NCBI GenBank assembly: GCA_947626145.1
Contig: CANQRB010000013.1
Coordinates: forward strand, 1 to 47,660
DNA length: 47,660 nucleotides
Direction of reading: 5' to 3'
DNA from: an uncultured Clostridia bacterium
GTDB taxonomy: Bacteria > Bacillota > Clostridia > UMGS1883
The notes under the pieces are model-generated. The model had not been told where the DNA came from. It did no database searches and saw only the letters and a list, made by a program, of their open reading frames with translations. This document shows, one piece after another, positions 23,937-42,336 of the stretch. Within the stretch, counting starts at the first letter, position 1. Every line of letters starts with the position of its first letter. The position numbers and the translations under genes were made by a program.

Positions 23937-23972
23937 AAAAGCCGCCATCTCTGCGATGGCGGCTTTATTTTC
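23937..23972. terminator. Bidirectional rho-independent terminator
   Basis: GCCGCCATC (23941-23949) pairs with GATGGCGGC (23955-23963), flanked by AAAA and TTTATTTT. It serves the GH26 gene and can also stop the convergent exopolysaccharide operon. Next to it, 23985-24016 is a small palindromic repeat fragment (GTTTAC/GTAAAC). Confidence 0.88.
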
Positions 23973-24033: not shown

Positions 24034-24831
24034 TCACAGGCTCACTTTCCACTCTATATCCCCGATCCTCTGCTCATGGCCCTTTTTCTGATCCTCAGGC
24101 AGGGGAGCCATATAGTCCCCGAAATTCAGCGTGAGATAGGCGTGATAATCGGCGGGCACGGGATAGAGACCGTCCTCGAATTGCAGCCGCTTTTCCCCGC
24201 CGAAGATAACCCTGCGCTCCACGATTTTCGTGCCCTTGCAGGGCAGCAGCACATAGCGGGTACCCTCGCCGTGAGCCTTCATGCGGCCGGTCACAAAGCG
24301 GTGAAAGAAATGGCGGAAGCCTATGGGCAGGAATTCCAGCGCCCGGGTAAGGGGGCCGCGCCTGCCGTCGAACCTCGTAAACTCCGCCAGCATTATCTTG
24401 TTGGCGGCCTTGAACAGAAATATCTCCAGCTTGCGCAGGGGAGCGAAGTCGCTCAAAGGGTAGATGGGGAAAAGGTCGATGCAGATGCCCCAGTTTATGG
24501 GAATGGAGGCATACTTTTTCGGCCGCGAAAGGGTGTTCACCGCCCGTATCTTGCTCCATGTCATGGGGTAATGCCGCTCAACGGAGGAGTCGGTAATCAT
24601 GTACTCCTTATTTCCCTCCCGGGGAAAGACCTCCATAAGCCGTTCAAGGTCGCGGCAGGGAACCAGCACATCTATGTCGTCGTCCCACGGAATAAAGCCG
24701 CCATACTTGGCCGCGCCCAGAAGGGTGCCCTGACCCAGAAAGTACCGGATGCCGTTGAGGCGGCAGACCCGGTCAAGCTCACGGAGCATACCGTACTCCA
24801 CATGTTGTATATCCCTAAGCAAACCGCTCAC
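24034..24831 (-). CDS. LicD family phosphotransferase
   Basis: A 265-aa LicD-type nucleotidyltransferase-fold protein. Such proteins transfer phosphocholine or similar phosphodiester groups onto cell-surface glycans. Diagnostic is LGQGTLLGAAKYGGFIPWDD with the following DID metal residues (about 30-53). It is the last gene of the exopolysaccharide operon, 25 bases after the HD-domain gene, GTG start at 24831 with AAGGGAGAG. No choline-uptake or licC gene is in the operon; the nucleotidyltransferase at 19731 is the only candidate partner in the window. Its likely job is decorating the polymer with a phospho-substituent. Confidence 0.85.
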   Translation of the reverse strand: MSGLLRDIQHVEYGMLRELDRVCRLNGIRYFLGQGTLLGAAKYGGFIPWDDDIDVLVPCRDLERLMEVFPREGNKEYMITDSSVERHYPMTWSKIRAVNTLSRPKKYASIPINWGICIDLFPIYPLSDFAPLRKLEIFLFKAANKIMLAEFTRFDGRRGPLTRALEFLPIGFRHFFHRFVTGRMKAHGEGTRYVLLPCKGTKIVERRVIFGGEKRLQFEDGLYPVPADYHAYLTLNFGDYMAPLPEDQKKGHEQRIGDIEWKVSL

Positions 24832-24856: not shown

Positions 24857-25438
24857 TCAGTCCAGTTCGACGGTGACCTTTTTCAGGTAGTCCAGCACGT
24901 CGTCACCGAATTTGCCGGAATCGCCGTGCTCTATCATCTGAAGCGCCTCGTCACAGTTGACGCCGTGGCGGTAGATGCGGTCAAAGTACAGGGCGGCGAA
25001 AACGTCGCATATGGACACCACCTGAACGTAGAGTGGTATATCCGTAATATGCTCGTAGCCGCTGCCGTCGATGCGCTCGTGGTGATAGCGGCAGATGTTC
25101 TTCACAATCTCCCGCTCGTCGTCGTCCAGCTCATCCTTTATCATCTCGTAGCCGTATTTAGCGTGGGATTTTATGTTCTGCTTTTCCTCGGGGGTGAGAG
25201 GGCCCGCCTTGGTAAGTATGAAATTCCTTATCCCCAGCTTGCCGATGTCGTGGAGCAGCGCCCCCTTGCATATCTGGGCCACCTGCTCGGGACTGTAGCT
25301 TGTATAACCCTCGCTGTTCATCTTACGTATCATCTTTGAGGTGAGCTCCTTCACATTGATGCAGTGATAATAGGTCTCGGCGCTGTTTATTCGGAGCTCT
25401 TCCATCAAATTGCGCAGTCCATCGGTCATTTTTATCAT
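24857..25438 (-). CDS. Stand-alone HD-GYP-like domain protein
   Basis: A 193-aa cytoplasmic protein made of one HD-GYP-like domain. HDIGKLGI supplies the HD pair and Lys, SHAKYGYEM the next His, and HHERIDGSGY the third motif. The terminal Pro of GYP is Glu here, so c-di-GMP hydrolysis is plausible but not certain. ATG at 25438 overlaps the stop of the glycosyltransferase gene (ATGA) and has GGAGAGG 6 bases upstream; an ATG at 25453 would overlap that site. Position inside an exopolysaccharide operon that begins with other c-di-GMP genes supports a role in local turnover or sensing of that messenger. Confidence 0.8.
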   Translation of the reverse strand: MIKMTDGLRNLMEELRINSAETYYHCINVKELTSKMIRKMNSEGYTSYSPEQVAQICKGALLHDIGKLGIRNFILTKAGPLTPEEKQNIKSHAKYGYEMIKDELDDDEREIVKNICRYHHERIDGSGYEHITDIPLYVQVVSICDVFAALYFDRIYRHGVNCDEALQMIEHGDSGKFGDDVLDYLKKVTVELD

Positions 25439-26379
25439 GATTTGCCTCTCCATCTCGCCGCGAATATCCGGCGCACAAGGGCGGCCGGCATCATAAGCAG
25501 CGCAAAATTAATTAATCTGTCCTTCACGGCCACAGAGGGCCCGGTCTCGGCGAAGGCGCGGAAGGCCTCCCTCCTCCGCCCGTCAATAATATAGTGACGG
25601 CAGCGGCGCATGGTGAACCAGTCCATTACCTTCCTGAGGTTTTCCCGCTTTTGGGCGGGAATGGTCTCGTCCGCGTACAGGGCCTTTACCCCCTCGAAAA
25701 AGCCCCAGTCGGGGTCAAAGGAGCGATCCTTTGTGGCGGTGCTGTTGACCTTCTTATAGGTGGCGGTGTTCTTTTTTGTCAGGGCCACGGGAAAATAGGC
25801 CGCCACCCGCAGATCCATCTCCAGATCCTCGCCTATTTTGCAGCCCACGGGGAAGCCGCCGGTCTTTTCCATGGCCTCACGGGTGACGCAGGTGCTGACG
25901 GGGGTAAAAATCTTCACCGTCTTATCCCTGTGATACTCACCCAAAAAGTCCTCGAGAAAAACGTCCTCTCCCGTCCGGTTCCGGAAGTAATCGTACTCCG
26001 TCTGTATCTTGCCGTTCACCATCTCCACCCGCACGGCGGAGGCGTAGAGCCCCGCTCCGGGGTATTTTTTTATCAGCTTCCGCATGGTCTCGAGGTGGTC
26101 GGCGTCCCACACGTCGTCGGCGTCCAGAAAGGCATAGTAACCGTACCTTGCCAGTGACATGGCCTTGTTCCTGGCGGCGGAAACACCGGCGTTGGGCTGG
26201 GAATAGACCCTTATCCGTCCGTCGCCCTCATATTTTTTCAGCACCCCGAGGGTGTCGTCCGTCGAACCGTCGTTGACGATGACGATTTCCCATTCCTTTT
26301 CGGTCTGGGCCAAAACGCTTTTCACCGCACCGTCAATGCAGTGTGCGCCGTTATATACCGGTATAATGACCGAGAACAA
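25435..26379 (-). CDS. Glycosyltransferase family 2
   Basis: A 314-aa GT-A-fold glycosyltransferase. The nucleotide-sugar site begins SVIIPVYNGAHCIDGAVKSV, followed by IVNDGSTDDT; the metal motif is AFLDADDVW (about 93-101). The C-terminal part is basic with hydrophobic patches, suggesting membrane association. TTG start at 26379 with GGGAGGG 7 bases upstream. Part of the exopolysaccharide operon: 16 bases after the polymerase gene and coupled by a 4-base overlap to the HD-domain gene. It would add one sugar of the repeat unit; donor and linkage are unknown. Confidence 0.88.
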   Translation of the reverse strand: MFSVIIPVYNGAHCIDGAVKSVLAQTEKEWEIVIVNDGSTDDTLGVLKKYEGDGRIRVYSQPNAGVSAARNKAMSLARYGYYAFLDADDVWDADHLETMRKLIKKYPGAGLYASAVRVEMVNGKIQTEYDYFRNRTGEDVFLEDFLGEYHRDKTVKIFTPVSTCVTREAMEKTGGFPVGCKIGEDLEMDLRVAAYFPVALTKKNTATYKKVNSTATKDRSFDPDWGFFEGVKALYADETIPAQKRENLRKVMDWFTMRRCRHYIIDGRRREAFRAFAETGPSVAVKDRLINFALLMMPAALVRRIFAARWRGKS

Positions 26380-26395: not shown

Positions 26396-27757
26396 CTAAA
26401 TAAAGTAAAGCATCATAAAGGTCCAGTCAACGAAGAAGTCCACCGACAGGCCGAAAAAGATGAACGTGAAGGGGAAAATTATCTTAAGTATCTCAAGATC
26501 CTCGTCCTCGTAGCCGGGCCTGGCCGCGAAGTGCCGCAGCAGCTTGACAAAGAACACCGCGAACAGGGGGATATAGATAAACAGCGCACCTAAAATACCG
26601 AAGTTCAAAATACTCTGGATATACGAGTTGTGGCAGGCTATTGAGAACACCGTCTTGTCTATGAAATCCACGGTTACAACGCTGCCGCCGATGATCTGAC
26701 CCCAAAGGGCCTTGTTGGAAAAGATGGCCAAGGCGGTCTCCCAAATGCCGGTGCGTCCGGTGGTGAGCAGGTCCCAGCGTCCCTGGGACATATAGGCCAG
26801 CTTTTCGTTGAAGCGTATCAGCAGGCCGGCGATGGCGTCGATCTGTCTGAACTGAGGTATGGAGAACAGGATCAGCAGCGTCACGCTTATGCCCACAAAG
26901 GCAAAGACCAGTATAAAGAAGGCCTTTTTCCTGTATTTGAGTATTATCAGCAGCACCGTCAGGGTGAGGAGGGTCAGCAGGGCGGAAAGGCTGGCCGTCT
27001 GAAGTATCATGACGCCGAACAGCCCCAAAAATGCCAGCCGCAGCAAAAGCGGGATCTTTTTCAGCGTCAGGGTACAGATTATGCACAGGCTGTAGAACAT
27101 ACCGGCGAAATTGGCGTCACTGAGGGCGCCGAAGTTACGGCTGACCTTGTGGACGCCTGCGCCCGCAACGTTGATGTTCTTGGTGAACACGTCGCTGGCC
27201 CAGCCGTAAACGCCCGAGACCACGCCTCCCAGCAGGAACACGAAGAAGAACTTCCGCAGGAGCTTCGGGTCGTTGACCATCCTGCACATGAGCACGTAAA
27301 TCAGCACGCAGTCAACTATTACGTTAAGGCCCTCTTTCACTCCAACGACGGGTATCATGGCGAAAACGCTGTGCAGGAAGAACACGAACAGGGCAGGCAG
27401 ATAGGCCACGTTGAACTTGAGCTTCGGCATATCCAGCAGGAACCTCAGTGCCAGCAGATAACGGTATATACGGAAGGCCGGAATGTCCGACGTGAGCATC
27501 AGCCTGTAGCGCAGATAGATGAACAGCGCCATATAGAGGTAAAAGTTCTCGTCGCCGAAGCTTATCACAACGCAGACCAGAACGGCCACCGAAAACCACG
27601 TGGTAAGATCGGGAAAAACGCCCGAAAGGAGACAGAAAACAAAGCCCAGCACAAAAACAACGTCGTTGAGCTTTCTGACCCAGGGCTTCTTAAGCCAGGC
27701 AAATCTTTCCTTTGTGCCAATTGGGTTTATATTCATCAGTCCGGCTTCGGCTTCCAA
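26396..27757 (-). CDS. O-antigen ligase/polymerase-like (Wzy-type) membrane protein
   Basis: A 453-aa protein with about ten to twelve membrane helices and a large extracytoplasmic loop (about 295-345, containing SQGRWDLLTTGRTGIWETAL), which is the layout of the Wzy_C/O-antigen ligase family. RTGIWETA is close to the conserved RxxxW motif of that family. It would polymerise lipid-linked repeat units outside the membrane. TTG start at 27757 with AGGAGGG 6 bases upstream. It lies between GT4 and GT2 genes in the operon. No Wzx flippase was found in the window, so the flipping step must be encoded elsewhere or done differently. Confidence 0.82.
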   Translation of the reverse strand: MEAEAGLMNINPIGTKERFAWLKKPWVRKLNDVVFVLGFVFCLLSGVFPDLTTWFSVAVLVCVVISFGDENFYLYMALFIYLRYRLMLTSDIPAFRIYRYLLALRFLLDMPKLKFNVAYLPALFVFFLHSVFAMIPVVGVKEGLNVIVDCVLIYVLMCRMVNDPKLLRKFFFVFLLGGVVSGVYGWASDVFTKNINVAGAGVHKVSRNFGALSDANFAGMFYSLCIICTLTLKKIPLLLRLAFLGLFGVMILQTASLSALLTLLTLTVLLIILKYRKKAFFILVFAFVGISVTLLILFSIPQFRQIDAIAGLLIRFNEKLAYMSQGRWDLLTTGRTGIWETALAIFSNKALWGQIIGGSVVTVDFIDKTVFSIACHNSYIQSILNFGILGALFIYIPLFAVFFVKLLRHFAARPGYEDEDLEILKIIFPFTFIFFGLSVDFFVDWTFMMLYFI

Positions 27758-27774: not shown

Positions 27775-28995
27775 TTACAGAATTTCGTCTATCATTTTGT
27801 CAAACGCGCTTATTTCCCGCTCGTTGCCATAATCTGTATTTTGCACGTTTCGTTTCAGTATATCAAGAACGCCCGGGTCCCGAAGGAGCTTTTTCAGCCC
27901 CTGATACAGGGCCTCGTCGCTGTTGTCAAACACAAGACCGTCCACCCCGTCCCGTATCTGTTCCCGGGCGGAGGCGTATTCGGTAACTATTGGCGGCAGC
28001 CCCATCATATAGCCCTCAGTAACGGCCATGGGCTTGCCCTCGTACCGTGAGGGCAGAAAAAAGGCGTCGCACTTTTTCATATAGGGAATCGGGTTGTCCC
28101 TGACCCCTATGGGGAATATGTTTTTTTCAAGACCGGCCGCGGCGATCATTTCCTTAAGCTTATCCATATCGCGGCCGCCGCCGATTATGAGCCAGCGGAC
28201 ACGGTCGGTCAGGCCCTCGCCCTTCAGGCGGGCAAAGGCGGTCACGGCCCGGTCGTGGCCCTTATGCTCAAAGCTTACGCGGGCCACGGTCACCAGCTTG
28301 AGGCAGTCCTCCCCGACGTCAAAGGGCAGCTCGGCCTCATACTCATCGCCCCGATCCCGCACATAGGCGGAGGTCAGGAGGTTTGGTATGAAAAAGCACT
28401 TTCCCCTGTGCTCGGGGTGAGCCCGCAGATGGTCGGCCATGACCTTCTCGCTGACAAAGACCATGGCGTCGGATTTGTCGAAGCACTTCCTGTCCACGCG
28501 GTAGTCCAGACCGCGCTTTTCGTACTCTATATGGTGCCAAAGCACCTTTTTGCGGGCCTTGACCCGGGTCATGATATAATTCATGCACCAGTTCAGCTCA
28601 TAGGCCACGGCCACATCGTATTCTCCGTCCAACGGACGGGAATACCGACAGCCCTGACGGGACATTATCTGTACGGCCCGGGGCTTGTTGTGGCGGACAT
28701 AGCGGTAATACACATATTGTAACCGCGCCAGGGCGTAGGAGGGCGACAGAGCCTTGCTCAGCACGTTGCCGGGGCTGTATTTTTCATGCACCATGCCCTG
28801 AGGGATAATGTTTATCTCTTCCTTTATGCCGTAGCGCCGGTTGGGGTCGCTCTCGTAGAACATCAGATCCACGTCGTAGCGGCCGGTATCAAGGGCGTTG
28901 ACAAAGTTCACCAGCGAGGTCATGGCCCCGCCTATGTGGGCCTGAACAAAGCAGATCAGGAGCCTTATTTTCTTCTCCCCGCCCGATGTATTCAT
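27775..28995 (-). CDS. Glycosyltransferase family 4 (GT-B)
   Basis: A 406-aa GT-B glycosyltransferase. The N-terminal half starts KIRLLICFVQAHIGGAMTSL (acceptor side). The C-terminal nucleotide-sugar domain has LVTVARVSFEHKGHD and FFLPSRYEGKPMAVTEGYMM, the latter containing the E-x7-E retaining motif of GT4. ATG start at 28995. Exopolysaccharide operon member, 18 bases after the GT2 gene. It would add a sugar with retention of configuration. Confidence 0.9.
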   Translation of the reverse strand: MNTSGGEKKIRLLICFVQAHIGGAMTSLVNFVNALDTGRYDVDLMFYESDPNRRYGIKEEINIIPQGMVHEKYSPGNVLSKALSPSYALARLQYVYYRYVRHNKPRAVQIMSRQGCRYSRPLDGEYDVAVAYELNWCMNYIMTRVKARKKVLWHHIEYEKRGLDYRVDRKCFDKSDAMVFVSEKVMADHLRAHPEHRGKCFFIPNLLTSAYVRDRGDEYEAELPFDVGEDCLKLVTVARVSFEHKGHDRAVTAFARLKGEGLTDRVRWLIIGGGRDMDKLKEMIAAAGLEKNIFPIGVRDNPIPYMKKCDAFFLPSRYEGKPMAVTEGYMMGLPPIVTEYASAREQIRDGVDGLVFDNSDEALYQGLKKLLRDPGVLDILKRNVQNTDYGNEREISAFDKMIDEIL

Positions 28996-29013: not shown

Positions 29014-30006
29014 CTATTTTCTCAATGTGAACATCCGTCCGGCTATGACCGCGCTGTACGGGACAACGTAAAACGCGGTGTACATGAGCCGCTGTTTGAG
29101 GGGCATTCCCCTGCGCAGTATCATTTTGGGGAAATTTTCCCGATATATCCTCATATACTCACCGCTGACGCAGGCCTCGTCCCGATCCTGCCGGGGGAGG
29201 TACATCTGCTCGCAGTAGCGCAGGATTATGTCCCGGCATATCTTCTCCCGGGCGCGCATGACCTGAAGCGGCCGGCCCTCCTTCTCGAAAAAGGCGGCCC
29301 GCCCCTCGTAGGCCCGCAGGTAGTCATAGCGGTGGGGATTGTTCTTCATCCGCCGGGCTATGTCGTCCATAATGCTGGAGCCGCGCTGGAAGTAGTAGTA
29401 CAGCTTTTCTGTGGTTATAGCCACCCGTCCGGCCCTGTATACCGCCCGATATGTCACGAACTCGTCCTCGTTGAGCATACCAAGCGGATAATACAGGTCG
29501 CGGAAGGTCCCCACCCGATATATTTTGGAGTGGGCCTGAGAACGCAGCTCGTACCCCAAAAGGGCGGTCTCGGCGTCCGTGACGGTGACCGCGGGCTCCG
29601 GGGCGGCGGGAGAAAATCCGCCGCCCGAGCCCTTTTCGTAGCCGCACTGAGCCACCCCGCAGGCCCGCTCCTCACAGAGGGACATGAGCCGACGGGCAAA
29701 GTCGGGGTGGACATAGTCGTCCGAGTCCACAAAGGCGATGAAGTCCGTGTCCTCCGCTTCCTCCATCACCAGCCGCAGACCGGCGTTGCGGGCGTCGGAC
29801 AGGCCGCCGTTCCTCTTGTGTATGACCCTTATTTTTTCAGATTTTTCCGCGTAACCGTCACAGATGGCCGGACAGCCGTCGGGCGAGCCGTCGTCCACGA
29901 GAACTATCTCTATGTTCTCATAGCTCTGACCCAGAACCGAATCGACGCAGCGCCGGAGGTACTCCTCCACCTTGTACACGGGTATTATGAAGTAAAGCTT
30001 TTTCAT
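29014..30006 (-). CDS. Glycosyltransferase family 2
   Basis: A 330-aa GT-A enzyme: LYFIIPVYKVEEYLRRCVDS at the N-terminus, VLVDDGSPDGCP and FIAFVDSDDYV (metal DxD). A long basic C-terminal region resembles WaaV/EpsJ-type transferases. I take ATG at 30006 because the family begins there; a GTG at 30030 overlaps the stop of the preceding gene by 4 bases and could instead be used for coupled translation. Member of the exopolysaccharide operon. Confidence 0.88.
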   Translation of the reverse strand: MKKLYFIIPVYKVEEYLRRCVDSVLGQSYENIEIVLVDDGSPDGCPAICDGYAEKSEKIRVIHKRNGGLSDARNAGLRLVMEEAEDTDFIAFVDSDDYVHPDFARRLMSLCEERACGVAQCGYEKGSGGGFSPAAPEPAVTVTDAETALLGYELRSQAHSKIYRVGTFRDLYYPLGMLNEDEFVTYRAVYRAGRVAITTEKLYYYFQRGSSIMDDIARRMKNNPHRYDYLRAYEGRAAFFEKEGRPLQVMRAREKICRDIILRYCEQMYLPRQDRDEACVSGEYMRIYRENFPKMILRRGMPLKQRLMYTAFYVVPYSAVIAGRMFTLRK

Positions 30007-30026
30007 TGTGTGTCCGTTCCGGCGGA

Positions 30027-30902
30027 TCACTCCGCCTCGAGCTTGACCAGCACCACCTCGGGCGGGTTGAGGAACCGCACCTTGTCGGTGTTCTGATCAC
30101 AGCCGCCGCTGACTATCATGGCCGCGCCGTCTCCCTCTTTGAAATAACCGTAGTCATACTTGGGGAAGTAGGTGTTTTTTCCCGCCTCGCCCGTGTCCTG
30201 ACCTATCAATCCGCCCACAAAGGGCAGCCGCACCACGCCGCCGTGGAGGTGGCCGGCCAGTATCAGGTCGCCGCCGCAGTCCTTGATGTTGGGGTAAAGG
30301 TCGGCCCGGTGATTGAGCACCACTGTAAAGACGGACGGGTCGGTTATCTCCTCGGAGATCTCCTCCCTGACCTTGTCTATCTGCTCCTGAGAGAGGACGT
30401 CGGACTTGGGATCCTTCGCGCCCACCAGCTGGATGGACTCGCCGTTCTTTTCGATAGTGACGCTGTCGTTCTCAAGGGGAATGGCCCCGTTGCCCCAAAG
30501 GCGGCCCATGATGTTATCATAATCCTGATTCTGGCTTTCGTGGTTGCCGGAGACCGCGTACAGGGACGTCATGTTCCGCACCGCCTTGGTTATCTTCGAG
30601 GCCTCGTCCACGTTGTAGTAGGGGAGCTGAACCATGTCGCCGGTAAAGACCACAAGATCCGGCTCCTGATTTCTTATGTGCTCGATTATCTGATCCGAAA
30701 AGGGGGCGTTGTGCAGGTCGGATATAACCATTATCCTGTAGCCGTCAAAGCTCTGAGGTATCTCGGGATGGCTGAACGTATATTCCGTCAGTCTGACCGT
30801 GTCGTTCATTCTGTCGTTGACGGTAAGAATGACGACGCAGATCAGAATCAGAGCGCAGACAACTATCAAAAGCCACTTCACGATGTTCAAAAAAACCCTC
30901 AC
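30027..30902 (-). CDS. Membrane-anchored metallophosphoesterase
   Basis: A 291-aa calcineurin-like phosphoesterase with one N-terminal membrane helix (about 7-28). Metal motifs appear in order: VISDLHNAPF, VFTGDMVQ, AVSGNHES and LAGHLHGGV. It belongs with the YkuE/YaeI-type group, some of which act on lipid-phosphate substrates. GTG start at 30902 with GGGAGGAG. It sits between the Wzz-EAL gene and a glycosyltransferase gene; a role in recycling the polyprenyl phosphate carrier or trimming phosphodiester-linked groups is an inference from position. Confidence 0.85.
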   Translation of the reverse strand: MRVFLNIVKWLLIVVCALILICVVILTVNDRMNDTVRLTEYTFSHPEIPQSFDGYRIMVISDLHNAPFSDQIIEHIRNQEPDLVVFTGDMVQLPYYNVDEASKITKAVRNMTSLYAVSGNHESQNQDYDNIMGRLWGNGAIPLENDSVTIEKNGESIQLVGAKDPKSDVLSQEQIDKVREEISEEITDPSVFTVVLNHRADLYPNIKDCGGDLILAGHLHGGVVRLPFVGGLIGQDTGEAGKNTYFPKYDYGYFKEGDGAAMIVSGGCDQNTDKVRFLNPPEVVLVKLEAE

Positions 30903-30921: not shown

Positions 30922-33117
30922 TTAAATTTTTTCAGGCTTGCCGTAATAGTAGCCCTGCTTGTAATCGAAGCCCGTCTTGGCGACAATATTGTCCTGAGAC
31001 CGCTTCTCTATGCCGCAGATACAGGTCTTGATGCCGTTCTTGTGGCACTTGTCGATAATATCCGAGAAGTAACCCAGCATATTCATGGTGGCCTCCACCA
31101 CGTCCTCGTCGGAGGTGGCGTACATATCGGAGTTCAGTATGTCCAAACTCATCTTTATGTAGCCGGGCTTTACGACATTGATGATCTCCTGCTCCTCGTT
31201 GGAGTTCTCGAACCGGTCGATGCAGATGCCGATGCCCATCTCGTCCAGAAGCATGATGTCGTCCAGAGACTCGGCTATATCCTTACCGGTGAGCTCAAGG
31301 CAGATATTCTTGGCGGGAATATCATTGTCGGTAATGTGCTTGAGAATTATGTCATTGAGAGCGAAGTCATTGACCTGAGAGTAGGGGCAGTTGATGTGTA
31401 CCACGGGCATGGGCTTATGCTGCTTACGCAGGGCGGCCAGATCCTCGCAGACGCTCTTGATTATCCAGTCGTTAAGCTGGCGGTAAATGCCGAAGTCGCC
31501 CACGCACTCAAAGATCTTACCGGGCGAAACAAGGCCCAAAGTGGGGCTCTGCCACCGGATGAAGGCCTCGCTGTGAGGCTCGTCGCCGGGCTTGCAGGGC
31601 ACCATTTTCTGGTACACAAGGAAGAACTCGCTGAAGCCCTTGCGGAACTGATCGTAGAGCAGATGATGGGTCTCGTCCAGCTCCTCGCTGTCGCCCGATT
31701 CCTCCTCCTCGCCGTTGAGGGCAGCCCTCTTGGCGGCAAGGCGGCGGGTTATCTCGGCGATAACAACGGCCACGATGGCGATGCCCATGGCCAGCACAAA
31801 CAGGAAAATGGCCACGATGGAAACGGGGATGTCGGCCTTTACCTCGGGAAGGATAAGGTACTGGAGGTCGGTGTTGACAAGAGAGTCATAGAACTCATCG
31901 ATGGAGGTGTTGGCTATTTTGCTGTACTCCTTGGAAAGATCGACTATCTCCTTGAGTATGCTCTCGTTCTTCTTGATCAGGGTGTTTTTCACGTCCTGAG
32001 GAACGGTGTCGTTGACATAGGAGTCAATGATCATGTTATAGTTGTCGATCTCACGGACAGCATTGGAGGCGTTGCTGGCGTAGTCGGTATAGCTGAGGAT
32101 AATGTCGTCGTAGGTGTTGGTGTAATCCTCAAGATCCTTGTCCTCGATAACGTCCTGATCGCGGTTGTTGGAGGAGTCCACGTTCCTCTGCACCTGCTCG
32201 GCCTGACGGTAAAGTCCGGCGGCCTTGTAGGAGTCGTAGAAGGTGGTTATCTCTTCGCGGTAGTTCTCGGAAACGGGGTAGTCAACGCTCCAGTCCTGCC
32301 AGAGCTCATTGACCCGGGCGCGGTAGCTCTTTATGACCATTTCCCTATCCTTGGCCAGATTGCCGGCCCGAATGTTGCCGTAGTACTTGGCGTACTGGAT
32401 GTCCCGCAGATCCTCATACATATCGGACAGCTCGGAGAAGGTGTAGCCCGTCTTGCCGGAGCGGAAGTCCGGATAAGTGCCCGCGAGGGTGTCCAGATTT
32501 TCGATTATGCTGTCAAGGCTGTTGCTGAGCTTGTCGGCCACAACTATGTACTCGGCGTCCACGTCCTCAATGACCTTGGCAAAGTCCTCCACGTTTTTCT
32601 TGTTGTAATACTTGGAAAGAAGGTACTCGTCGTACTCGTTTACGATATTGCTGAATATACGGGCGCCGAACTCGTCGCCGAGGGAAGCCTTGTAGGTGAG
32701 CTTCATCTCGTATTCGGTGGCGGCCACGTCATACTTTTCGCCCAGCATGGCCGCGGACTCGGAAACCTCCTGATCCAGATCGGTCACTACCTTGTTGATG
32801 GCGATATTCTGACGGATGCCCTTAACCGCGTCGGCGTTGCTGTTGAGGCCCATATCCTTCAGGGCCGCCTGAATGACGACGGGGTTCTGGATCTCATAGG
32901 GGTCCAGCTTGCTGACGCCGTCGGGGGCAAGGCCGGTGGCGGCGCCTTCGTGGTTGTACTTGAAGCCCAGAGTACAGGTATAGGTCTGCACCATGGACGC
33001 AACCAGCACGCCCACCAGCGCCACGGCGATGGAAAGCGCCAAAATCTGGAGGAAATGCTTGCGGACGATTTTGGCCATGTCGCTTATACTGAGAAATCCC
33101 AATTCAATAAGTCCCAT
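30922..33117 (-). CDS. Wzz-like chain-length protein fused to a degenerate EAL domain
   Basis: A 731-aa fusion. TM1 is about residues 24-46; a periplasm-facing helical region (about 47-425) resembles Wzz/Wzc-type polysaccharide co-polymerases; TM2 is about 430-455 (SIVAIFLFVLAMGIAIVAVV). An acidic linker leads to an EAL-like domain (about 495-731). EAL motifs are altered: EAF for EAL (about 516), the Asn of INCP and Glu of LELTGKD are kept, DDFG is DRFE (about 633), the K-x-D Asp is Ser in IKMSL (about 653), AEGVE is CICGIE (about 700), and QGYYYGKP is kept. Loss of metal ligands suggests a c-di-GMP receptor, not an enzyme. ATG with GAGGGGG; 3 bases after the second Wzz-like gene. Confidence 0.82.
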   Translation of the reverse strand: MGLIELGFLSISDMAKIVRKHFLQILALSIAVALVGVLVASMVQTYTCTLGFKYNHEGAATGLAPDGVSKLDPYEIQNPVVIQAALKDMGLNSNADAVKGIRQNIAINKVVTDLDQEVSESAAMLGEKYDVAATEYEMKLTYKASLGDEFGARIFSNIVNEYDEYLLSKYYNKKNVEDFAKVIEDVDAEYIVVADKLSNSLDSIIENLDTLAGTYPDFRSGKTGYTFSELSDMYEDLRDIQYAKYYGNIRAGNLAKDREMVIKSYRARVNELWQDWSVDYPVSENYREEITTFYDSYKAAGLYRQAEQVQRNVDSSNNRDQDVIEDKDLEDYTNTYDDIILSYTDYASNASNAVREIDNYNMIIDSYVNDTVPQDVKNTLIKKNESILKEIVDLSKEYSKIANTSIDEFYDSLVNTDLQYLILPEVKADIPVSIVAIFLFVLAMGIAIVAVVIAEITRRLAAKRAALNGEEEESGDSEELDETHHLLYDQFRKGFSEFFLVYQKMVPCKPGDEPHSEAFIRWQSPTLGLVSPGKIFECVGDFGIYRQLNDWIIKSVCEDLAALRKQHKPMPVVHINCPYSQVNDFALNDIILKHITDNDIPAKNICLELTGKDIAESLDDIMLLDEMGIGICIDRFENSNEEQEIINVVKPGYIKMSLDILNSDMYATSDEDVVEATMNMLGYFSDIIDKCHKNGIKTCICGIEKRSQDNIVAKTGFDYKQGYYYGKPEKI

Positions 33118-33120
33118 TTT

Positions 33121-34566
33121 TTACGCCCCCTCTTTACTCATGGTTTCTTTTATGTCGTCAATGAGCTTCTTCTTGCGTCTGAGCTTCCGGCTGTCGGAAA
33201 CGGAGCTGATGAATACCGCGGCGATGAAGGCCAGCACCGCGCCAAGAGCGAACACCAGACCCAGCCTTATGAGAAGGGCGGGGGTGATCAGGTTCATTCT
33301 GGATATTTTGGCGGTGAGGTATTCCTCGTTGACGCTGTTGAAGTACTCCTCGACCACCACGCGGGCGGTGCGGGTGAGCTCCTTATACTCGTCCTCGAAC
33401 TCGTCGATAAGCTCGTCGCACTTCGCGTTGAGCCGGCTGAGCTCCTCGGGAGTCTGCTCAGCGTTGGTGTAGGACTGGAGCTCCGTCTGGAACTGGCTGA
33501 TCCTGGCGGCGTGCTCGGCAAGGCTGGTGTCGGCCTTGTGCTTCTGCTCAACAACGGTGTCGAAGGCGGTCTTGGGACGTGCCTGATAGAGGCCGTAGGT
33601 CTCGTTCTGGATAACGTTTATCAGGTTCTCGGTAAAGGTCTGGTCGTAGTTGTTCATGGCGAACTGGTTTATCTGAGACCGATCCGCGTACTTGTTGCTC
33701 CTGAGGGAGTAGTTCTCGATATTGACCTTGAGCTTGTTGGAGGCCTGATCCACGTCCTTGGATATGCCGGAGGACTCAATAAAGTCGGAGATGCCGTCTA
33801 TCCTGTTGGAAACAAGGAAGTCATACTTGCCCTCGATGTCCTTAAGGGTGTAGTTGTCAAAGGACACAAAGTCGGGGGATTTTTTGCTGAGATAGTCCAG
33901 ATAGAAGGAGATAATCCTTATTTTTGTTCTGTAAACCCTCAGCTTCTCGCTGTAGTCATAGTTGTCGGCGCCCTTGATCTCGGTCAGGTTCTTAAAGCCG
34001 TCGATGCCGCCCTGCTCCTCCGCCAGACGTACGCGGTTGACCTCGAGGAGAGCCCGCAGGAAGTCGCGGCTATAGTCCTTGCTCAGGAACTTGCGGATAA
34101 AGTTGCTGTCCTTGTAGTCGTGGGGCTGGGTGAATGTTATGCGGTACTCGTTGGCCACATAGCTGAAGTCGTTGCCCTCGCTGCGGACGGAGGACACGGT
34201 GTCGCCGGCGGAATTTTCCAGATAGCTGGAAATGTCAAAGCTGTTCCGCAGGTCGGCAACGGTGAAGTTCTTGTACTTGTCGTTGCTGTTCATGATGTCG
34301 AGGGCCGCCGCGATATTCTCGTCGCTGATCAGATCGTAATAGGTGAAGCGGCTGCCGTCGGGCCGTCTGGACTGGGCAATTTCGGGATAATTCAGCACAA
34401 CGTCGGCTTTGGCCGCGGCGTAGCCGTTATACGCGTAGTACAGAAAGTAGCCCAGGGCGGATATCAGGCCCACAACGGCCATCAGCAAAATGAAGCCGCG
34501 GAATTTGGTGGCCCGGCCTTTGTAGATGACCCTTTTGAGGTTCTTTACCCCTTTCATTTTCTTCAT
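33121..34566 (-). CDS. Wzz-like polysaccharide co-polymerase
   Basis: A 481-aa protein with TM1 at about 25-46 (FILLMAVVGLISALGYFLYY), a long extracytoplasmic helical domain with coiled-coil stretches (about 310-400) and TM2 at about 430-453, then a short basic tail. This is the layout of chain-length determinants. It lacks the Pro-rich TM2 motif of classical Wzz and a BY-kinase domain. Its start overlaps the stop of the glycosylphosphotransferase gene (ATGA), and it is followed 3 bases later by the Wzz-EAL gene, so the two are probably made in equal amounts and may form a mixed complex. Confidence 0.75.
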   Translation of the reverse strand: MKKMKGVKNLKRVIYKGRATKFRGFILLMAVVGLISALGYFLYYAYNGYAAAKADVVLNYPEIAQSRRPDGSRFTYYDLISDENIAAALDIMNSNDKYKNFTVADLRNSFDISSYLENSAGDTVSSVRSEGNDFSYVANEYRITFTQPHDYKDSNFIRKFLSKDYSRDFLRALLEVNRVRLAEEQGGIDGFKNLTEIKGADNYDYSEKLRVYRTKIRIISFYLDYLSKKSPDFVSFDNYTLKDIEGKYDFLVSNRIDGISDFIESSGISKDVDQASNKLKVNIENYSLRSNKYADRSQINQFAMNNYDQTFTENLINVIQNETYGLYQARPKTAFDTVVEQKHKADTSLAEHAARISQFQTELQSYTNAEQTPEELSRLNAKCDELIDEFEDEYKELTRTARVVVEEYFNSVNEEYLTAKISRMNLITPALLIRLGLVFALGAVLAFIAAVFISSVSDSRKLRRKKKLIDDIKETMSKEGA

Positions 34567-35966
34567 TGTTTTACTTCCTCCTTTGCGGCCTTTGCCACAG
34601 TTTTTTTCTTGAAATCGTCCTCGCCCTCGGACGCCGCTTTCAGGAACATGGTCTTTGTGGTGAGAAGGATTATTTTAAAATCAAGAAGCAGAGAATAGTG
34701 GGTTATATAGAACAGGTCGTAATATGTCCTGTCATATATGTAGGTGGAGTACCGTCCGTACACGTGGGAGAGGCCCGTGAGCCCCGCCTTTACCTCAAAG
34801 CGGTAGTCGTAATATTCGATCTCTTTTTCAAACTGCTCCACGAACACCGGACGCTCGGGCCGGGGGCCCACAACGCTCATGTCGCCCTTGAGGATATTGA
34901 TTATCTGGGGCAGCTCATCCAGCCGGCAGGCCCGCAGGAGCTTACCGATAGGTGTGATGCGGGGGTCGTGCTTTTCGGCGAATTTTGGCCCGCTGAGCTT
35001 CTCGGCGTCCGGTATCATGGTGCGGAACTTGTATATCTCAAATTCCTTTTTGTGCCGCGTCAGCCGCACCTGCTTGTAAAACACCGGCCCGGGGGAGGTT
35101 ATCTTGATGGCCAGGGCGATGACCGCCATGGGTATCGCCGCCAGCACCAGCCCGACGGAGGCGATGATTATATCCATGACCCGCTTCAGGAACAGATCCA
35201 CCTTGTTAAGGGATCTTTTCGGCATATACAGGGTGAGTATGTCGTCAAAGAGAACTATTCTGGCGTTGGTCCTGCCCGCGTCGATAATCTTCGGCACGAT
35301 GAACAGATCCTTGTTCAGCTCCGTGGCCGCCGCCACCGCCGCGTCGTTGTCCTTGTCGGGCAGGTCGGTGAAGATGCAGATGGCGTCAAAAAGGGGAAAG
35401 CTGTCCTTGATGAAGCGGTTCAGCTCCTCGGAGGTCATATCCGCCACGTCCTCGTACCAGGCGTCGTAATTGTTCAGCACGCCGTACTTTATCTTCTTCA
35501 TCCGGGGGAAATTCTTTTCACCGGAGTCGATTATGAGCAGGCTGGGCTTTTTGTACCTGGTCTCGTCGTCAAAGTGCCTCATCATCAGTACGTCGGAGGC
35601 AAACACCGCCGCCACTTTGACGAACAAAAGCACCAGATCCGCCAGGAACTGATCCAGAGACATGAAGAAGATCAGGTTCACAATTCCCATTATGAAGAAG
35701 GTGTACACCGCGGCCAGGGCCGTCATTACGAATTTTTCGTACAGGCCCGAAACCACCAGCATATACTTCTCCAGCAGGTACATGAAAATCATCATGCCTC
35801 CGCAGTCGGCTATGTACAGCAGCGCCACCGCGCGGCTGCCAATGGAGGCGCTGTCCGACCGGATAATAAAGGCCAGTACCAGAACCGCCAGCAAAACCAC
35901 GGCGTTGCAGAAAAGCTCGTACCTGCACTCGTTGCGGGGATTGCGCACCTTGAGTCCGTTATGCAT
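34563..35966 (-). CDS. Polyprenyl glycosylphosphotransferase (priming enzyme)
   Basis: A 467-aa WcaJ/PssY-like initiating sugar-phosphate transferase, which loads the first sugar phosphate onto undecaprenyl phosphate. Four to five N-terminal membrane helices (about 18-140) precede a CoA-binding-like cytoplasmic region. The catalytic domain begins near 265: KRVMDIIIASVGLVLAAIP, ITSPGPVFYKQVRL, FEIYKFRTM and the signature GDMSVVGPRPERP. ATG at 35966 with GGAAAGAG. It is 4 bases after a GT2 gene and coupled to the first Wzz-like gene. This gene marks the operon as exopolysaccharide or capsule synthesis. Confidence 0.93.
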   Translation of the reverse strand: MHNGLKVRNPRNECRYELFCNAVVLLAVLVLAFIIRSDSASIGSRAVALLYIADCGGMMIFMYLLEKYMLVVSGLYEKFVMTALAAVYTFFIMGIVNLIFFMSLDQFLADLVLLFVKVAAVFASDVLMMRHFDDETRYKKPSLLIIDSGEKNFPRMKKIKYGVLNNYDAWYEDVADMTSEELNRFIKDSFPLFDAICIFTDLPDKDNDAAVAAATELNKDLFIVPKIIDAGRTNARIVLFDDILTLYMPKRSLNKVDLFLKRVMDIIIASVGLVLAAIPMAVIALAIKITSPGPVFYKQVRLTRHKKEFEIYKFRTMIPDAEKLSGPKFAEKHDPRITPIGKLLRACRLDELPQIINILKGDMSVVGPRPERPVFVEQFEKEIEYYDYRFEVKAGLTGLSHVYGRYSTYIYDRTYYDLFYITHYSLLLDFKIILLTTKTMFLKAASEGEDDFKKKTVAKAAKEEVKQ

Positions 35967-35970
35967 AAAA

Positions 35971-36819
35971 TCACTCTTTCCGTAGCAGCTTTTCCTGAAG
36001 CATGCGAAAAACCTTGGAAAAAATTATTATATAGGGCCTCATACGTGTCAGAAGCCTGTAAAAGGGAGTGTCGATCCCCCAGCCGGGCAAAGCCTCGGCC
36101 ATATAGCGGGCCACGCTGCGGTTGGCCGCCAGCTTCTCTCTGAAGCCCAGGCCGCTGCCGGTCAGCGAGGTCTCGCCCCTGACATAGTGATAAAGCACCT
36201 TATCCACGAAGCAAAAGCTTTGGACGTTTTTAAAGACGCCCACGGAAAACTTCAGATCCTCCGCCGTCCTGAGGCCGGTGTCAAACTTAAGTCCTCCGAT
36301 AACCGAATTTTTGATGAGCTTCATGCAAACATGGTTCATGTTGATGCCCGTCATCATTTTTATGTACACCTTTTTCAGCTCCGGCCCCCGAAGCACCGCG
36401 CCGCCGGGGAAAACTCCCCTTGGGGCGAAGGATCTTCCGCCGGGGAAGTCGAAAACATACCGGCACTGGATCACGTCGCAGTCCGTTTCCCGGGCCCGGG
36501 TGATCAGGGTCTCGAGCATATCTGCCTCCCAAAAGTCGTCCGAGTCCAGAAAGGCCGCGTACTCCGCCGTCAGCCGCTCGAGGGCAGCGTTACGGGCGCC
36601 GGCGGCGCCGGAATTGATCTCCCGCTCGATACACACGAAGCGGGGATCCGAGCGGGCGTACTCCCGCATTATTTCAAGGCTGCCGTCGGGTGAGGCGTCG
36701 TCCACCATCAGGGCCTCCCAATTTGTAAAGGTCTGGGCCTTCAGGCTGTCGAGACACTTCCGCAGCCCTTTTTCGGCCTTATACACAGGTATTATGACCT
36801 GTACCTCCGCTCCTGACAC
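35971..36819 (-). CDS. Glycosyltransferase family 2
   Basis: A 282-aa GT-A enzyme: VQVIIPVYKAEKGLRKCLDS, MVDDASPDGSLE and AAFLDSDDFWEA (DxD). GTG start at 36819 close behind GAGG. It is the first polymer-synthesis gene of the operon, 29 bases after the sensor kinase gene, with no promoter visible between them, so signalling and synthesis genes appear to share one transcript. Confidence 0.88.
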   Translation of the reverse strand: MSGAEVQVIIPVYKAEKGLRKCLDSLKAQTFTNWEALMVDDASPDGSLEIMREYARSDPRFVCIEREINSGAAGARNAALERLTAEYAAFLDSDDFWEADMLETLITRARETDCDVIQCRYVFDFPGGRSFAPRGVFPGGAVLRGPELKKVYIKMMTGINMNHVCMKLIKNSVIGGLKFDTGLRTAEDLKFSVGVFKNVQSFCFVDKVLYHYVRGETSLTGSGLGFREKLAANRSVARYMAEALPGWGIDTPFYRLLTRMRPYIIIFSKVFRMLQEKLLRKE

Positions 36820-36848: not shown

Positions 36849-39398
36849 TTATTCCTTAAGTATGTTCTGTATGGTTTCCATGAGCACCCGCACATTGATC
36901 GGCTTGGAAATATGGCCGTTCATGCCGCTTTCCAGAGCCTTTTTCCTGTCCTCGTCAAAGGCGTTGGCGGTCATGGCGAGAATGGGTACCGACGACAGGG
37001 CCGGATCGTCCAGGGCCCTGATGGCCCTCGCGGCGGCGTAGCCGTCCATCACCGGCATCTGTATATCCATGAGTATGAGCTCGTAATATCCCGGCGCCGA
37101 AGCGGAGACCTTTTCCACCGCCTCGGAACCGTCGGCGGCAGACTCCACCGCGAAGCCGCTTTCGGTCAGCAGCTCCTCGGCTATTTCCCGATTAAGCTCG
37201 TTGTCCTCCACAAGGAGTATGCGCTTGCCCTTCACCTCGTCGGAGACCTCCGGAGTCGAAGGCTCATCCTTCCTGCCGGAGGCGGACACCGCGTCCACAA
37301 GGGTGTCTCTCAGCTCCGAGATGAACAGGGGCTTGCTGCAAAAGGCGGTCACACCGGCCTCTCTGGCCTCATCCTCAAAAGAGCTCCAGTCATAAGCGGT
37401 GAGGATAATGATGGGCACATCCGGGCCCACTATCCTCCGGAGCCTGCGCACAACCTCGATGCCGCTCAGATCGGGCAGGGACCAGTCCACCACAAAGATG
37501 CGGAACCGGTCGTCCATCTCCACGGCCTGTTTGGCCCGCAGCACCGCCTCGAGACCGTGAAGGGTCCATTCGGCGCGGAGGCCTATGCGCATGAGCATTT
37601 TGGAAACGCTGTCGCAGGTTTCGTAGCTGTCGTCCACCACAAGGGCTCTCTGGCCCTCCAGCTCCTTGATAATGTCCACCTGTCTGGGGTGGTTCACAAG
37701 GCGGAACTGAAGGTTGATTATGAACTCGGTGCCCTTGCCCTGCTCGCTCTCGACCTTGATCATGCCGCCCATGGCGTCCACGATGTTCTTGGCGATGGGC
37801 AGGCCCAGTCCGGTGCCCTGTATACCGCTGACGGTGGAGGTCCGTTCCCGTTCAAAGGGCTCAAAGACCTTTTCCAGGAATTCCGGAGCCATGCCTATGC
37901 CGGTGTCCTTTATCCTGATCTCATACGAGCCGTAGCCCTTGGGCGCCGAGCGCCCCTGCCTTATGGTGAGGGACACGGAGCCGCCTGAGGGGGTAAATTT
38001 GATGGCGTTGCTCAGTATATTCAGCAGCACCTGATTCAGATGCAGCTTGTCACAGTAAATATCCTCGTCCACGACGTCTATGGTGTCCATGAAAAAGCTG
38101 AGCTGCTTGGTGTGCATCTGGGACTGGATTATGTTGCGCATATCCCGGAAGATGTCGGAGATATTGCACTCCTTTTCCTCGATGTGGAGCTTACCGCTCT
38201 CGATGCGGCTCATGTCCAGCACGTCGTTGATAAGGCTCAGCAAATGCTCGCTGGAGGAAAGTATCTTGGTGAGGTATTCCTGCACCCGATCCCGATTGTC
38301 GATATTGCTGCGGGCCAGGGTGGTAAAGCCGACGATGGCGTTCATGGGCGTCCGTATGTCGTGGGACATATTGGAGAGAAACATGGTCTTGGCGCGCTCG
38401 GCCGCCTCGGCCTTTTTCAGCCTTTCTGAAAGGACAGCCTGTTCGACGGCGCTGTTCATGACCTTGCGCGAGTTGCCCAGCACCCACAGATAGTAGGCGG
38501 CCACGGCGATGGCGATGAGGGCGGCCACGATGAGCAGCACTCTCTGTACGTCATAAAGATTGGCCAGAGCCACCTTCCTTGGCACCGAAACGGCGATCTC
38601 CCAGTTGTTCACATCCGAGGGGGCGTAGTAAAGGTACAGCCAGTCCCCCTTGTCTATCGGCTCAAACAGGCAGTAGCCCGTGCCGCCGGAGAGGAGGGAA
38701 TCGACCATTTTTTCCCACGGGCCGCCGACCTTGACCCGGCGCGGAGCCATATCGCTTATGTTGGTCAGCTCCTCATGCCAGGTGTCCATGATAAAGTCGC
38801 CGCTGGCCCGGTCAATTATGTATATGCTGGCGCTGGCGTTATATATGTTGTCTATGTTCATGGTCTTGGGCAGCTCGGAGAGAACGGTGACCCCGTAGAG
38901 CAGCGCCGCGACCCTGCCGTCCTGTTCAATAGGCACAAAATGGCGCAGCACCTCGGTTCCGCTGCCGGTAATGCTCCGGGAACGGCCGGTAATATGCTCG
39001 CCAAGCTTGACCTCCTCGTCGAAGGACAGGTCGGATTCTATTTCATCTATTTTTTCTCCGTCGGGAGATATGACCGTATTGTCCGGCAGCAAAATATGTA
39101 TGCGGCTGGTGGTCATAAGGGGCGAGACGGCGCTCACCATACTTTTAAGGGCGTCCTGATCGAAGTCGTCCACGGTGGAAAGGAAATCCTTGGTGGCGTT
39201 CAAAATACGGCTGTCGCGGCTGAGCTTGTTGCCCAGCTCCTCCACGGCGGTCCTTGCGCCCTCCTCCATACGTTCTATGCAGCGCTGCTCCATCAGGATG
39301 CTTATCTGAACATAACCATAGGAAAAGATGATCGCGATAACAAGGATTATCACGACCGTGGCAACAAGGCTTGCGTCATGTCTGCGCGCCCTCTTCAT
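36849..39398 (-). CDS. Hybrid sensor histidine kinase with two receiver domains
   Basis: An 849-aa membrane kinase. TM1 about 12-35, an extracellular sensor of about 250 residues resembling a double Cache domain (YIIDRASGDFIMDTWHE), TM2 about 290-312. HisKA has the phospho-His near 346 (FLSNMSHDIRTPMNAIVGF); HATPase has NILSNAIKFTP, DTGIGM and GTGLGLPIAK. Two receivers follow: Asp near 637 (VVDWSLPDLSG) and near 778 (LILMDIQMPVMDG). No HAMP domain. ATG at 39398 has GGGGAG 8 bases upstream. With the nearby free Hpt and REC-HD-GYP genes it forms a complete His-Asp-His-Asp relay. The signal is unknown; Cache domains usually bind small molecules. Confidence 0.93.
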   Translation of the reverse strand: MKRARRHDASLVATVVIILVIAIIFSYGYVQISILMEQRCIERMEEGARTAVEELGNKLSRDSRILNATKDFLSTVDDFDQDALKSMVSAVSPLMTTSRIHILLPDNTVISPDGEKIDEIESDLSFDEEVKLGEHITGRSRSITGSGTEVLRHFVPIEQDGRVAALLYGVTVLSELPKTMNIDNIYNASASIYIIDRASGDFIMDTWHEELTNISDMAPRRVKVGGPWEKMVDSLLSGGTGYCLFEPIDKGDWLYLYYAPSDVNNWEIAVSVPRKVALANLYDVQRVLLIVAALIAIAVAAYYLWVLGNSRKVMNSAVEQAVLSERLKKAEAAERAKTMFLSNMSHDIRTPMNAIVGFTTLARSNIDNRDRVQEYLTKILSSSEHLLSLINDVLDMSRIESGKLHIEEKECNISDIFRDMRNIIQSQMHTKQLSFFMDTIDVVDEDIYCDKLHLNQVLLNILSNAIKFTPSGGSVSLTIRQGRSAPKGYGSYEIRIKDTGIGMAPEFLEKVFEPFERERTSTVSGIQGTGLGLPIAKNIVDAMGGMIKVESEQGKGTEFIINLQFRLVNHPRQVDIIKELEGQRALVVDDSYETCDSVSKMLMRIGLRAEWTLHGLEAVLRAKQAVEMDDRFRIFVVDWSLPDLSGIEVVRRLRRIVGPDVPIIILTAYDWSSFEDEAREAGVTAFCSKPLFISELRDTLVDAVSASGRKDEPSTPEVSDEVKGKRILLVEDNELNREIAEELLTESGFAVESAADGSEAVEKVSASAPGYYELILMDIQMPVMDGYAAARAIRALDDPALSSVPILAMTANAFDEDRKKALESGMNGHISKPINVRVLMETIQNILKE

Positions 39399-39449
39399 CA
39401 AGCCAACTCCCCTTTTCCTTTAAATATGTCATGTATGCCGTCGTCCCGC

Positions 39450-40619: not shown

Positions 40620-41000
40620 TTACTGACAGTTGCTCTCAATGGCGCTGATTACCTTCTCATATTCCGGAGCGATGCGCTCCATAAACTCTCCGGCGCCCTT
40701 AAGATCGCCGTTGCGGATCATGCCGAGCTGCTCGGTAAAAAGATTGCCGAGTCTGGTTATCGACAGATTCAGACAAACTCCCTTGAGGGAGTGGCAGTTA
40801 AACTCGATGGCCTTTTTCGTCTCCTCGTCGGAGGCTCCCCCCTCGAGATCCTTTTGCAGCTCCGTATAATAGCTGACGCTGTTGCTGGGGAACTTTTTCA
40901 GAACCTTCGCCATCAGCCGTTCATTCCCCAGGAGCCTCTCCAGCGCCTCATCGACGTTGATGCCGGCATCCTCAAGGTTTTTCTTCATTGTCGCGTCCAT
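40620..41000 (-). CDS. Free-standing Hpt phosphotransfer protein
   Basis: A 126-aa helical protein with the Hpt signature FNCHSLKGVCLNLSITRLG; the phospho-accepting His is near residue 70. It would shuttle phosphate between the hybrid kinase's receivers and the REC-HD-GYP regulator. ATG at 41000 is preferred, with GGGAGGA 6 bases upstream; a TTG at 41006 is less likely. It is 17 bases after the regulator gene and 39 before the cyclase gene. Confidence 0.85.
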   Translation of the reverse strand: MDATMKKNLEDAGINVDEALERLLGNERLMAKVLKKFPSNSVSYYTELQKDLEGGASDEETKKAIEFNCHSLKGVCLNLSITRLGNLFTEQLGMIRNGDLKGAGEFMERIAPEYEKVISAIESNCQ

Positions 41001-42307: not shown

Positions 42308-42336
42308 ATTTTACCACGTTCTCACCTTTATGTCAA
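42308..42336 (-). promoter_or_regulatory. Promoter of the 18-kb signalling/exopolysaccharide operon
   Basis: Minus strand TTGACA (42331-42336), 17-base spacer, TAAAAT (42308-42313). It is the only strong promoter I found for the fifteen leftward genes. Between 42337 and 42566 the sequence is AT-rich and holds nothing else I recognise. Confidence 0.8.

Follow-up and report, generated by a model that had tools for sequence, protein, structure and literature searches.

The locus considered here raises the question of why a polysaccharide co-polymerase (PCP) should carry, at its cytoplasmic end, an EAL domain that has lost catalytic residues. The gene lies in the window, by which we mean the whole 47,660-nt stretch of Clostridia DNA that was analysed, and its product, PCP-EAL, had been proposed from the sequence to be a two-helix Wzz-like protein bearing a receptor-type EAL domain in place of a tyrosine kinase. 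Our computational analysis makes it fairly likely that PCP-EAL is a Wzc-type co-polymerase of a Wzy-dependent operon, in which a dead EAL domain replaces the kinase as a c-di-GMP receptor that switches assembly. The gene and its two parts are as follows.

30922..33117, minus strand: PCP-EAL, polysaccharide co-polymerase with a C-terminal degenerate EAL domain, 731 aa (open reading frame, Pfam EAL match, AF2 model and fold comparison)
31723..33117, minus strand: Wzc/Wzz-type N-terminal part, residues 1-465 (hydropathy, fold, Pfam Wzz matches in the family)
30925..31665, minus strand: degenerate EAL domain, residues 485-731, M1 ligands present and M2 ligands absent (Pfam, alignment, fold)

The reading frame has an ATG start and a good ribosome-binding site. 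Hydropathy and the AF2 model place transmembrane helices at about residues 22-42 and 432-461, enclosing a large extracytoplasmic domain as in PCP-2 proteins, and the EAL domain is predicted to be cytoplasmic because of these two helices and the basic stretch that follows the second. Residues 497-728 match the EAL profile PF00563 with E = 1.2e-31 (score 110 bits, cut-off 31), and the top NCBIfam matches and all PDB sequence matches of the protein are EAL proteins, MorA being the best PDB match. The AF2 model, which was built with eight sequences, contains an EAL barrel at 482-731, with pLDDT values in this block mostly between 70 and 94 and a dip at about 660-680. Fold comparison of the barrel gives Z values of 26.6 with c-di-GMP-bound MorA, about 25-26 with FimX, and 22.3 with c-di-GMP-bound LapD. 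Comparison of a predicted structure with EAL domains had been suggested as a check on the original prediction, and the domain is found to have both an above-threshold profile match to PF00563 and the TIM-barrel fold.

Evidence on the N-terminal part is of several kinds. The window protein itself has no match to Pfam Wzz, which is matched by 19 of 50 members of the PCP family (best E 9.6e-7), some of these being EAL or GGDEF fusions with the match on the same chain. When the N-terminal model, for which confidence is modest (pLDDT 68), was submitted alone to Foldseek, ranks 1 to 10 were all Wzc (E 1.5e-6) and WzzE was at rank 12; its comparison with VIA gives Z 11.0 over residues 10-460, where values below 13 are weak for helical proteins. 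A PDB sequence search with the N-terminal profile returned coiled-coil noise only. The relationship to Wzz/Wzc that is expected of a PCP-2 protein is therefore found by family profile and by fold. Neither the BY-kinase domain of PCP-2a proteins nor the cognate kinase gene of PCP-2b systems is found, PCP-EAL having no such domain and none of 49 loci having a tyrosine kinase in a search that detected four of four positive controls. PCP-EAL is thus best described as PCP-2-like but without a kinase, and not as an ordinary PCP-2a or PCP-2b, and its EAL domain occupies the position of the Wzc tyrosine kinase, as had been proposed.

Whether this domain acts as an enzyme or as a receptor turns on the residues of its pocket. 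In the PA3825 EAL structure, metal M1 is held by Glu39, Asn98, Asp130, and Asp160, and metal M2 by Asp161 and Asp183, with Glu217 in addition in the calcium form (PMC5301497). We compared 11 distinct orthologues (the window protein, L051/L002, L013, L014, L015, L016, L017, L052/L008, L088, L090, and L091), whose identity to the window protein, for those measured, is 55-90%. Eight residues of the M1 site and the phosphate contacts, E517, R521, N576, E608, D634, K655, E704, and Q721, are invariant in all 11. In the same sequences the canonical aspartate at position 635 has given way to R, K, or Q, the aspartate of KxD is serine (657), and the first glutamate of EGVE is cysteine (701); the changes read from the window sequence at the outset (DDFG to DRFE, AEGVE to CICGIE, and the K-x-D aspartate to serine) are thus correct and fixed in 11 of 11. 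Judged by motif, what has been lost is precisely the set of three M2 ligands, and M1 is intact. By our own arithmetic, random loss of three of the 11 canonical positions, kept and lost taken together, gives this very set once in 165. The c-di-GMP contacts Arg479 and Glu654 of FimX correspond by motif to R521 and E704. The ExLxR motif is ExFxR in 10 of the 11 orthologues, QAFLR being known from Xanthomonas FimX-like c-di-GMP receptors (PMC5567048), and the loop after DDFG is replaced in PCP-EAL; both changes count against the receptor reading. Degenerate EAL receptors characteristically lose catalytic residues and keep contact residues, as PCP-EAL does, and to this extent the suggested likeness to LapD and FimX holds; it does not extend to detail, since here M1 is present, M2 is gone, and the motif is mostly ExFxR. 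We consider that PCP-EAL probably binds c-di-GMP.

Relatives of the N-terminal part were found by profile in 51 of the 391 genomes sampled from the class and, in a phylum sample, in 5 of 398 genomes, that of the window among them. In a tree of 50 sequences, which like the alignment is limited to the sampled class genomes, 14 EAL fusions form one clade (100/99), 20 GGDEF fusions form another (100/99), and 16 members are unfused, so that c-di-GMP turnover domains appear, most simply, to have joined this family twice, separately for EAL and GGDEF. The domain-architecture search that had been called for therefore yields 14 full-length Wzz-type EAL fusions, 11 of them with the full pattern, and this recurrence together with the EAL E value (1e-31) rules out a chance motif match. 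Three EAL fusions lie outside the 11-member window clade, which has a long stem and complete loss of M2: L093 (8174-10477, plus strand) has fully canonical motifs, L092 (6798-9014, minus) has DNFG, and L045 (5776-7983, minus) has DNFG and KxS. Read from their motifs, L093, then L092 and L045, then the window clade may be a series, by way of half-degraded forms, from enzyme to presumed receptor on one scaffold. Stand-alone EAL proteins of 499 aa, beside an unfused co-polymerase pair, are encoded in L117 (13971-15467, minus) and L119 (10559-12055, minus); they have the motifs EVLTR, K for the M1 Asn, DNFG, and SGIE, and could represent a version of the fusion that is split into two proteins.

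The sister clade of GGDEF fusions comprises L046 (8529-10310, minus), L050 (8373-10274, plus), and L094-L111. In each of its 20 fused GGDEF domains the signature is degenerate (YNGNGSF, YNGVGQF, YNGSDQF, and similar) and RxxD is missing, so that, in this clade at least, the pseudo-enzyme attached to the co-polymerase may not take up c-di-GMP in the usual way. The free GGDEF proteins listed from the same loci are intact in seven of seven cases, two of which are copies of one contig, and a free EAL protein with canonical motifs is present in 12 of the 20 loci. Further c-di-GMP proteins occur in 28 of 47 classified loci of the family. Weighing against the receptor reading, only three of the 14 EAL-type loci show a GGDEF gene within the stretches sampled, although these may be too short.

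For the window protein and its 90%-identical orthologue L002, dN/dS is 0.076 in the EAL domain and 0.130 in the co-polymerase part, this being the one pair with a usable EAL value because dS is saturated for most others. The low value indicates that the degenerate EAL domain is under strong purifying selection, and a decaying relic is thereby ruled out.

The main rival to the receptor reading is that the EAL domain is a ligand-free scaffold to which partners (the operon's cyclase, HD proteins, or transferases) dock and which steers assembly of the co-polymerase through protein contacts, on the lines proposed for EcpK-EpsV. EcpK provides a precedent for a PCP-2 system that is independent of phosphorylation (PMC12004946), and the uniform degeneracy of the fused sister-clade GGDEF domains, with RxxD missing from each, is as expected of docking modules. 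A pure scaffold needs no pocket, however, and in the EAL clade the M1 and phosphate-contact residues are invariant in 11 sequences with only the M2 ligands lost. We therefore regard this explanation as unlikely, if still to be taken seriously.

A second alternative starts from a set of histidine and cysteine residues. All 11 window-clade sequences have H515, H574, C606, C632, and C699, each of which lies two residues before a catalytic strand-end residue, for which reason all five are expected to point into the barrel; C701, C577, and C691 are likewise invariant. The free EAL domains of related loci differ at these eight positions, except for Cys at 632 in L117 and L119. The set (residues 515-701; 31013-31575, minus strand) may be a metal/thiol or redox site or may merely reflect packing. 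As a rival, this would mean that the pocket has been remodeled to respond to metal or to redox conditions in place of, or along with, c-di-GMP, and the invariance of the residues and the expected inward position of five of them are in its favor. Packing alone could nevertheless explain the set, C699 is also present in less degenerate fusions, and M1 and the phosphate contacts are retained too; we judge this rebuilding improbable.

It is more improbable still that PCP-EAL remains a c-di-GMP phosphodiesterase that lowers the local pool. The M1 site is complete and the relative L093 has a fully canonical EAL domain on the same co-polymerase, but an active EAL enzyme has both metal sites (the Glu of EAL, N, E/D, DD, KxD, and EGVE), positions 635, 657, and 701 are changed throughout the clade, and two-metal catalysis has been proposed for EAL enzymes from paired-ion structures (PMC5301497). 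With all of the M2 ligands gone, we rejected this candidate. Finally, the host genome is in 23 contigs and two genes might have been joined in a metagenome bin, an explanation of negligible probability that is refuted, since at least 11 distinct sequences, drawn from different genomes, carry the fusion at full length and in a shared gene order.

The surrounding genes also bear on the receptor reading; they are listed in the order in which the minus strand is read.

42308..42336, minus strand: promoter-like TTGACA-17-TAAAAT with TG extension, 11/12, upstream of the HD-GYP gene (consensus match only)
41024..42115, minus strand: response regulator with intact HD-GYP, likely a c-di-GMP phosphodiesterase (PF00072; PF13487 5.7e-30; HD...HHERWDGRGYP)
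40620..41000, minus strand: HPt-domain protein, 126 aa, HSLKG motif (PF01627 E 4e-4, just under the Pfam cut-off)
39450..40580, minus strand: membrane diguanylate cyclase, RFGGDEF intact (PF00990 3.2e-32; sequence)
36849..39401, minus strand: hybrid histidine kinase with HisKA, HATPase, and two receiver domains (domain matches)
35971..36819, minus strand: glycosyltransferase family 2 (PF00535 1.9e-35)
34563..35966, minus strand: priming polyprenyl-phosphate sugar transferase (PGT) (PF02397 9.7e-64; TIGR03025 8.1e-94)
33121..34566, minus strand: unfused Wzz-like co-polymerase paralogue, 481 aa (weak PCP family profile match, E 4.4e-7; synteny)
30027..30902, minus strand: membrane-anchored metallophosphoesterase, conserved beside PCP-EAL (PF00149 1.1e-12; synteny)
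29014..30030, minus strand: glycosyltransferase family 2 (PF00535 3.2e-33)
27775..28995, minus strand: glycosyltransferase family 4 (PF00534 5e-29)
26396..27757, minus strand: Wzy-like polymerase / O-antigen ligase family (PF04932 7.8e-8, just over the cut-off)
25435..26379, minus strand: glycosyltransferase family 2 (PF00535 3.3e-34)
24857..25453, minus strand: small HD-domain protein, HD intact, GYP degenerate (GYE) (PF01966 2.1e-20; PF13487 2.1e-14)
24034..24831, minus strand: LicD-family protein, final gene of the run (PF04991 1.1e-26)
23938..23966, no strand assigned: GC-rich terminator-like hairpin just after the LicD gene (pattern match only)

With PCP-EAL between the unfused paralogue and the metallophosphoesterase, these genes form an uninterrupted minus-strand run from the HD-GYP regulator (42115) to LicD (24034) with gaps of at most 48 bases, a spacing that suggests a single transcript. 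The unfused paralogue adjoins PCP-EAL in orthologous loci as well, and the order of the block from the family 2 glycosyltransferase to the small HD protein is conserved in most of them. The PGT, glycosyltransferases, Wzy, and PCP of a Wzx/Wzy-dependent pathway are present in one operon, the Wzy match being barely above the cut-off. No Wzx/MOP-type flippase gene was found within the window, and a MOP-type gene lies beside the operon in L013, L015, L016, L017, and L052. An Rfam scan of the window gave nothing at gathering thresholds, and hence no known c-di-GMP riboswitch upstream. The metallophosphoesterase gene adjoins the PCP family in all three architectures and its product is perhaps a lipid-linked phosphatase; the small HD protein, which is conserved in the operon, is possibly another degenerate c-di-GMP protein. 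Two very large, secreted-looking open reading frames with signal-peptide-like N-termini, of 1892 aa (13371-19049, minus) and 1423 aa (42865-47136, minus), flank the operon.

The host genome, which is 95% complete, was searched family by family. Its one EAL domain is that of PCP-EAL, of its two GGDEF proteins one is encoded in this operon, as are two of its three HD_5 matches, and no PilZ domain was found in it. Conventional tyrosine-kinase genes are present elsewhere in the genome, at least one of them beside an ordinary short co-polymerase, so that the cell would have both kinds of co-polymerase control side by side. The receptor reading gains indirect support from the lone EAL domain in a genome without PilZ, from the cyclase and HD-GYP genes of the operon, from the purifying selection, from the lack of a tyrosine kinase at these loci, and from the separate fusion to GGDEF.

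If PCP-EAL is a c-di-GMP receptor, its action might be envisaged as follows. The operon's own cyclase would raise c-di-GMP under the control of the hybrid kinase and HPt phosphorelay, opposed by the HD-GYP regulator, and the nucleotide would occupy the EAL pocket with the M1 metal or with none. Without an M2 site the bound c-di-GMP would escape cleavage, and the R or K at 635 may substitute for the M2 cation against the phosphate. Wzc-type co-polymerases undergo cycles of assembly and disassembly that are driven by tyrosine phosphorylation (PMC12220298, PMC12004946). EAL domains dimerize, and in LapD dimerization and ligand binding depend on each other; by analogy, ligand-driven EAL contacts could drive the co-polymerase cycle. 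Binding might then alter EAL-EAL contacts below the membrane and with them the assembly state of the co-polymerase ring, formed together with the paralogue at 33121-34566, and this state would set polymerization by Wzy or release. We infer both the coupling of c-di-GMP binding to co-polymerase assembly and the direction of the effect, and the balance tips slightly toward c-di-GMP acting on chain length through PCP-EAL. A broader proposition is that, in a branch of the Clostridia, direct control of the co-polymerase cycle in Wzy-dependent export passed from tyrosine phosphorylation to c-di-GMP. One operon would then encode the writer and the eraser, the phosphorelay, and also the reader, a fused, once-active EAL domain from which the second metal site was removed, and the sister branch would offer a parallel with GGDEF. 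We advance this tentatively, judging it a little likelier to be wrong than right.

How Wzx/Wzy pathways are controlled after translation is, by one account, only partly understood (PMC12802240), and tyrosine phosphorylation of the co-polymerase is credited with most of this control (PMC12220298). If the reading is true, a c-di-GMP receptor built into the co-polymerase would connect these pathways with the direct c-di-GMP control known from synthase-dependent polysaccharides and make the question directly testable in one protein. PCP-EAL would then be a direct switch between a common bacterial signal and a very common type of polysaccharide assembly line, and in gut Clostridia c-di-GMP could determine surface polysaccharide with no need of PilZ proteins. 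L093, L092/L045, and the window clade would, in addition, document in nature how the loss of a single metal site turns an enzyme into a presumed receptor. The original prediction knew of no standard family with this architecture, and in full-text searches of a literature collection that leaves out preprints and most subscription journals we likewise found no description of Wzz-EAL, of Wzz-GGDEF, or of a co-polymerase combined with c-di-GMP. Each half is known; the combination of EAL domain and co-polymerase, and the control proposed for it, are new as far as could be checked.

Direct control by c-di-GMP is well established for synthase-dependent polysaccharides. In BcsA-PilZ and Alg44 the nucleotide acts directly on the polysaccharide machine, as we propose for PCP-EAL, although there it does so through a PilZ domain and in synthase-dependent pathways. 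PssE of Listeria and PelD are alike in having a degenerate c-di-GMP-turnover domain that serves as a receptor in an exopolysaccharide operon, but they use the I-site of a degenerate GGDEF domain, and neither is a Wzy-pathway co-polymerase; the Pel pathway depends on a synthase and Listeria Pss has itself been described as one, whereas the PCP-EAL operon is of the Wzy type. With LapD and FimX, PCP-EAL shares the EAL fold, the loss of catalysis-critical residues and, putatively, the receptor role, and like LapD, which signals outward, it is a membrane protein. It differs from both in having a Wzc-like N-terminal part and no GGDEF domain, and in its output, which is a co-polymerase rather than a protease trap or a pilus motor. 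Membership of the LapD family, defined by HAMP and a degenerate GGDEF before the EAL domain and by a LapG-binding periplasmic domain, does not apply, as PCP-EAL has no GGDEF or HAMP match. The route of degeneration also differs, in that LapD lost the Glu of EAL (KVL), an M1 ligand, whereas PCP-EAL retains M1 and lost M2. EcpK-EpsV of Myxococcus, a BY pseudokinase with its PCP, likewise pairs a PCP-2 protein with a dead enzyme and not with an active kinase; EcpK, however, is a kinase homologue on a separate chain, and no nucleotide signal has been proposed for it. Wzc and the CapA-CapB and CpsC-CpsD pairs (PCP-2a/2b) have the same two transmembrane helices around a long extracytoplasmic domain, the same placing of a cytoplasmic regulatory domain right after the second helix, and PGT, glycosyltransferase, and Wzy genes as neighbors, in keeping with the match of the PCP-EAL fold to Wzc. 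What distinguishes PCP-EAL from them is that its regulatory domain is a degenerate EAL domain and not a kinase, in an operon that has no kinase gene of this type.
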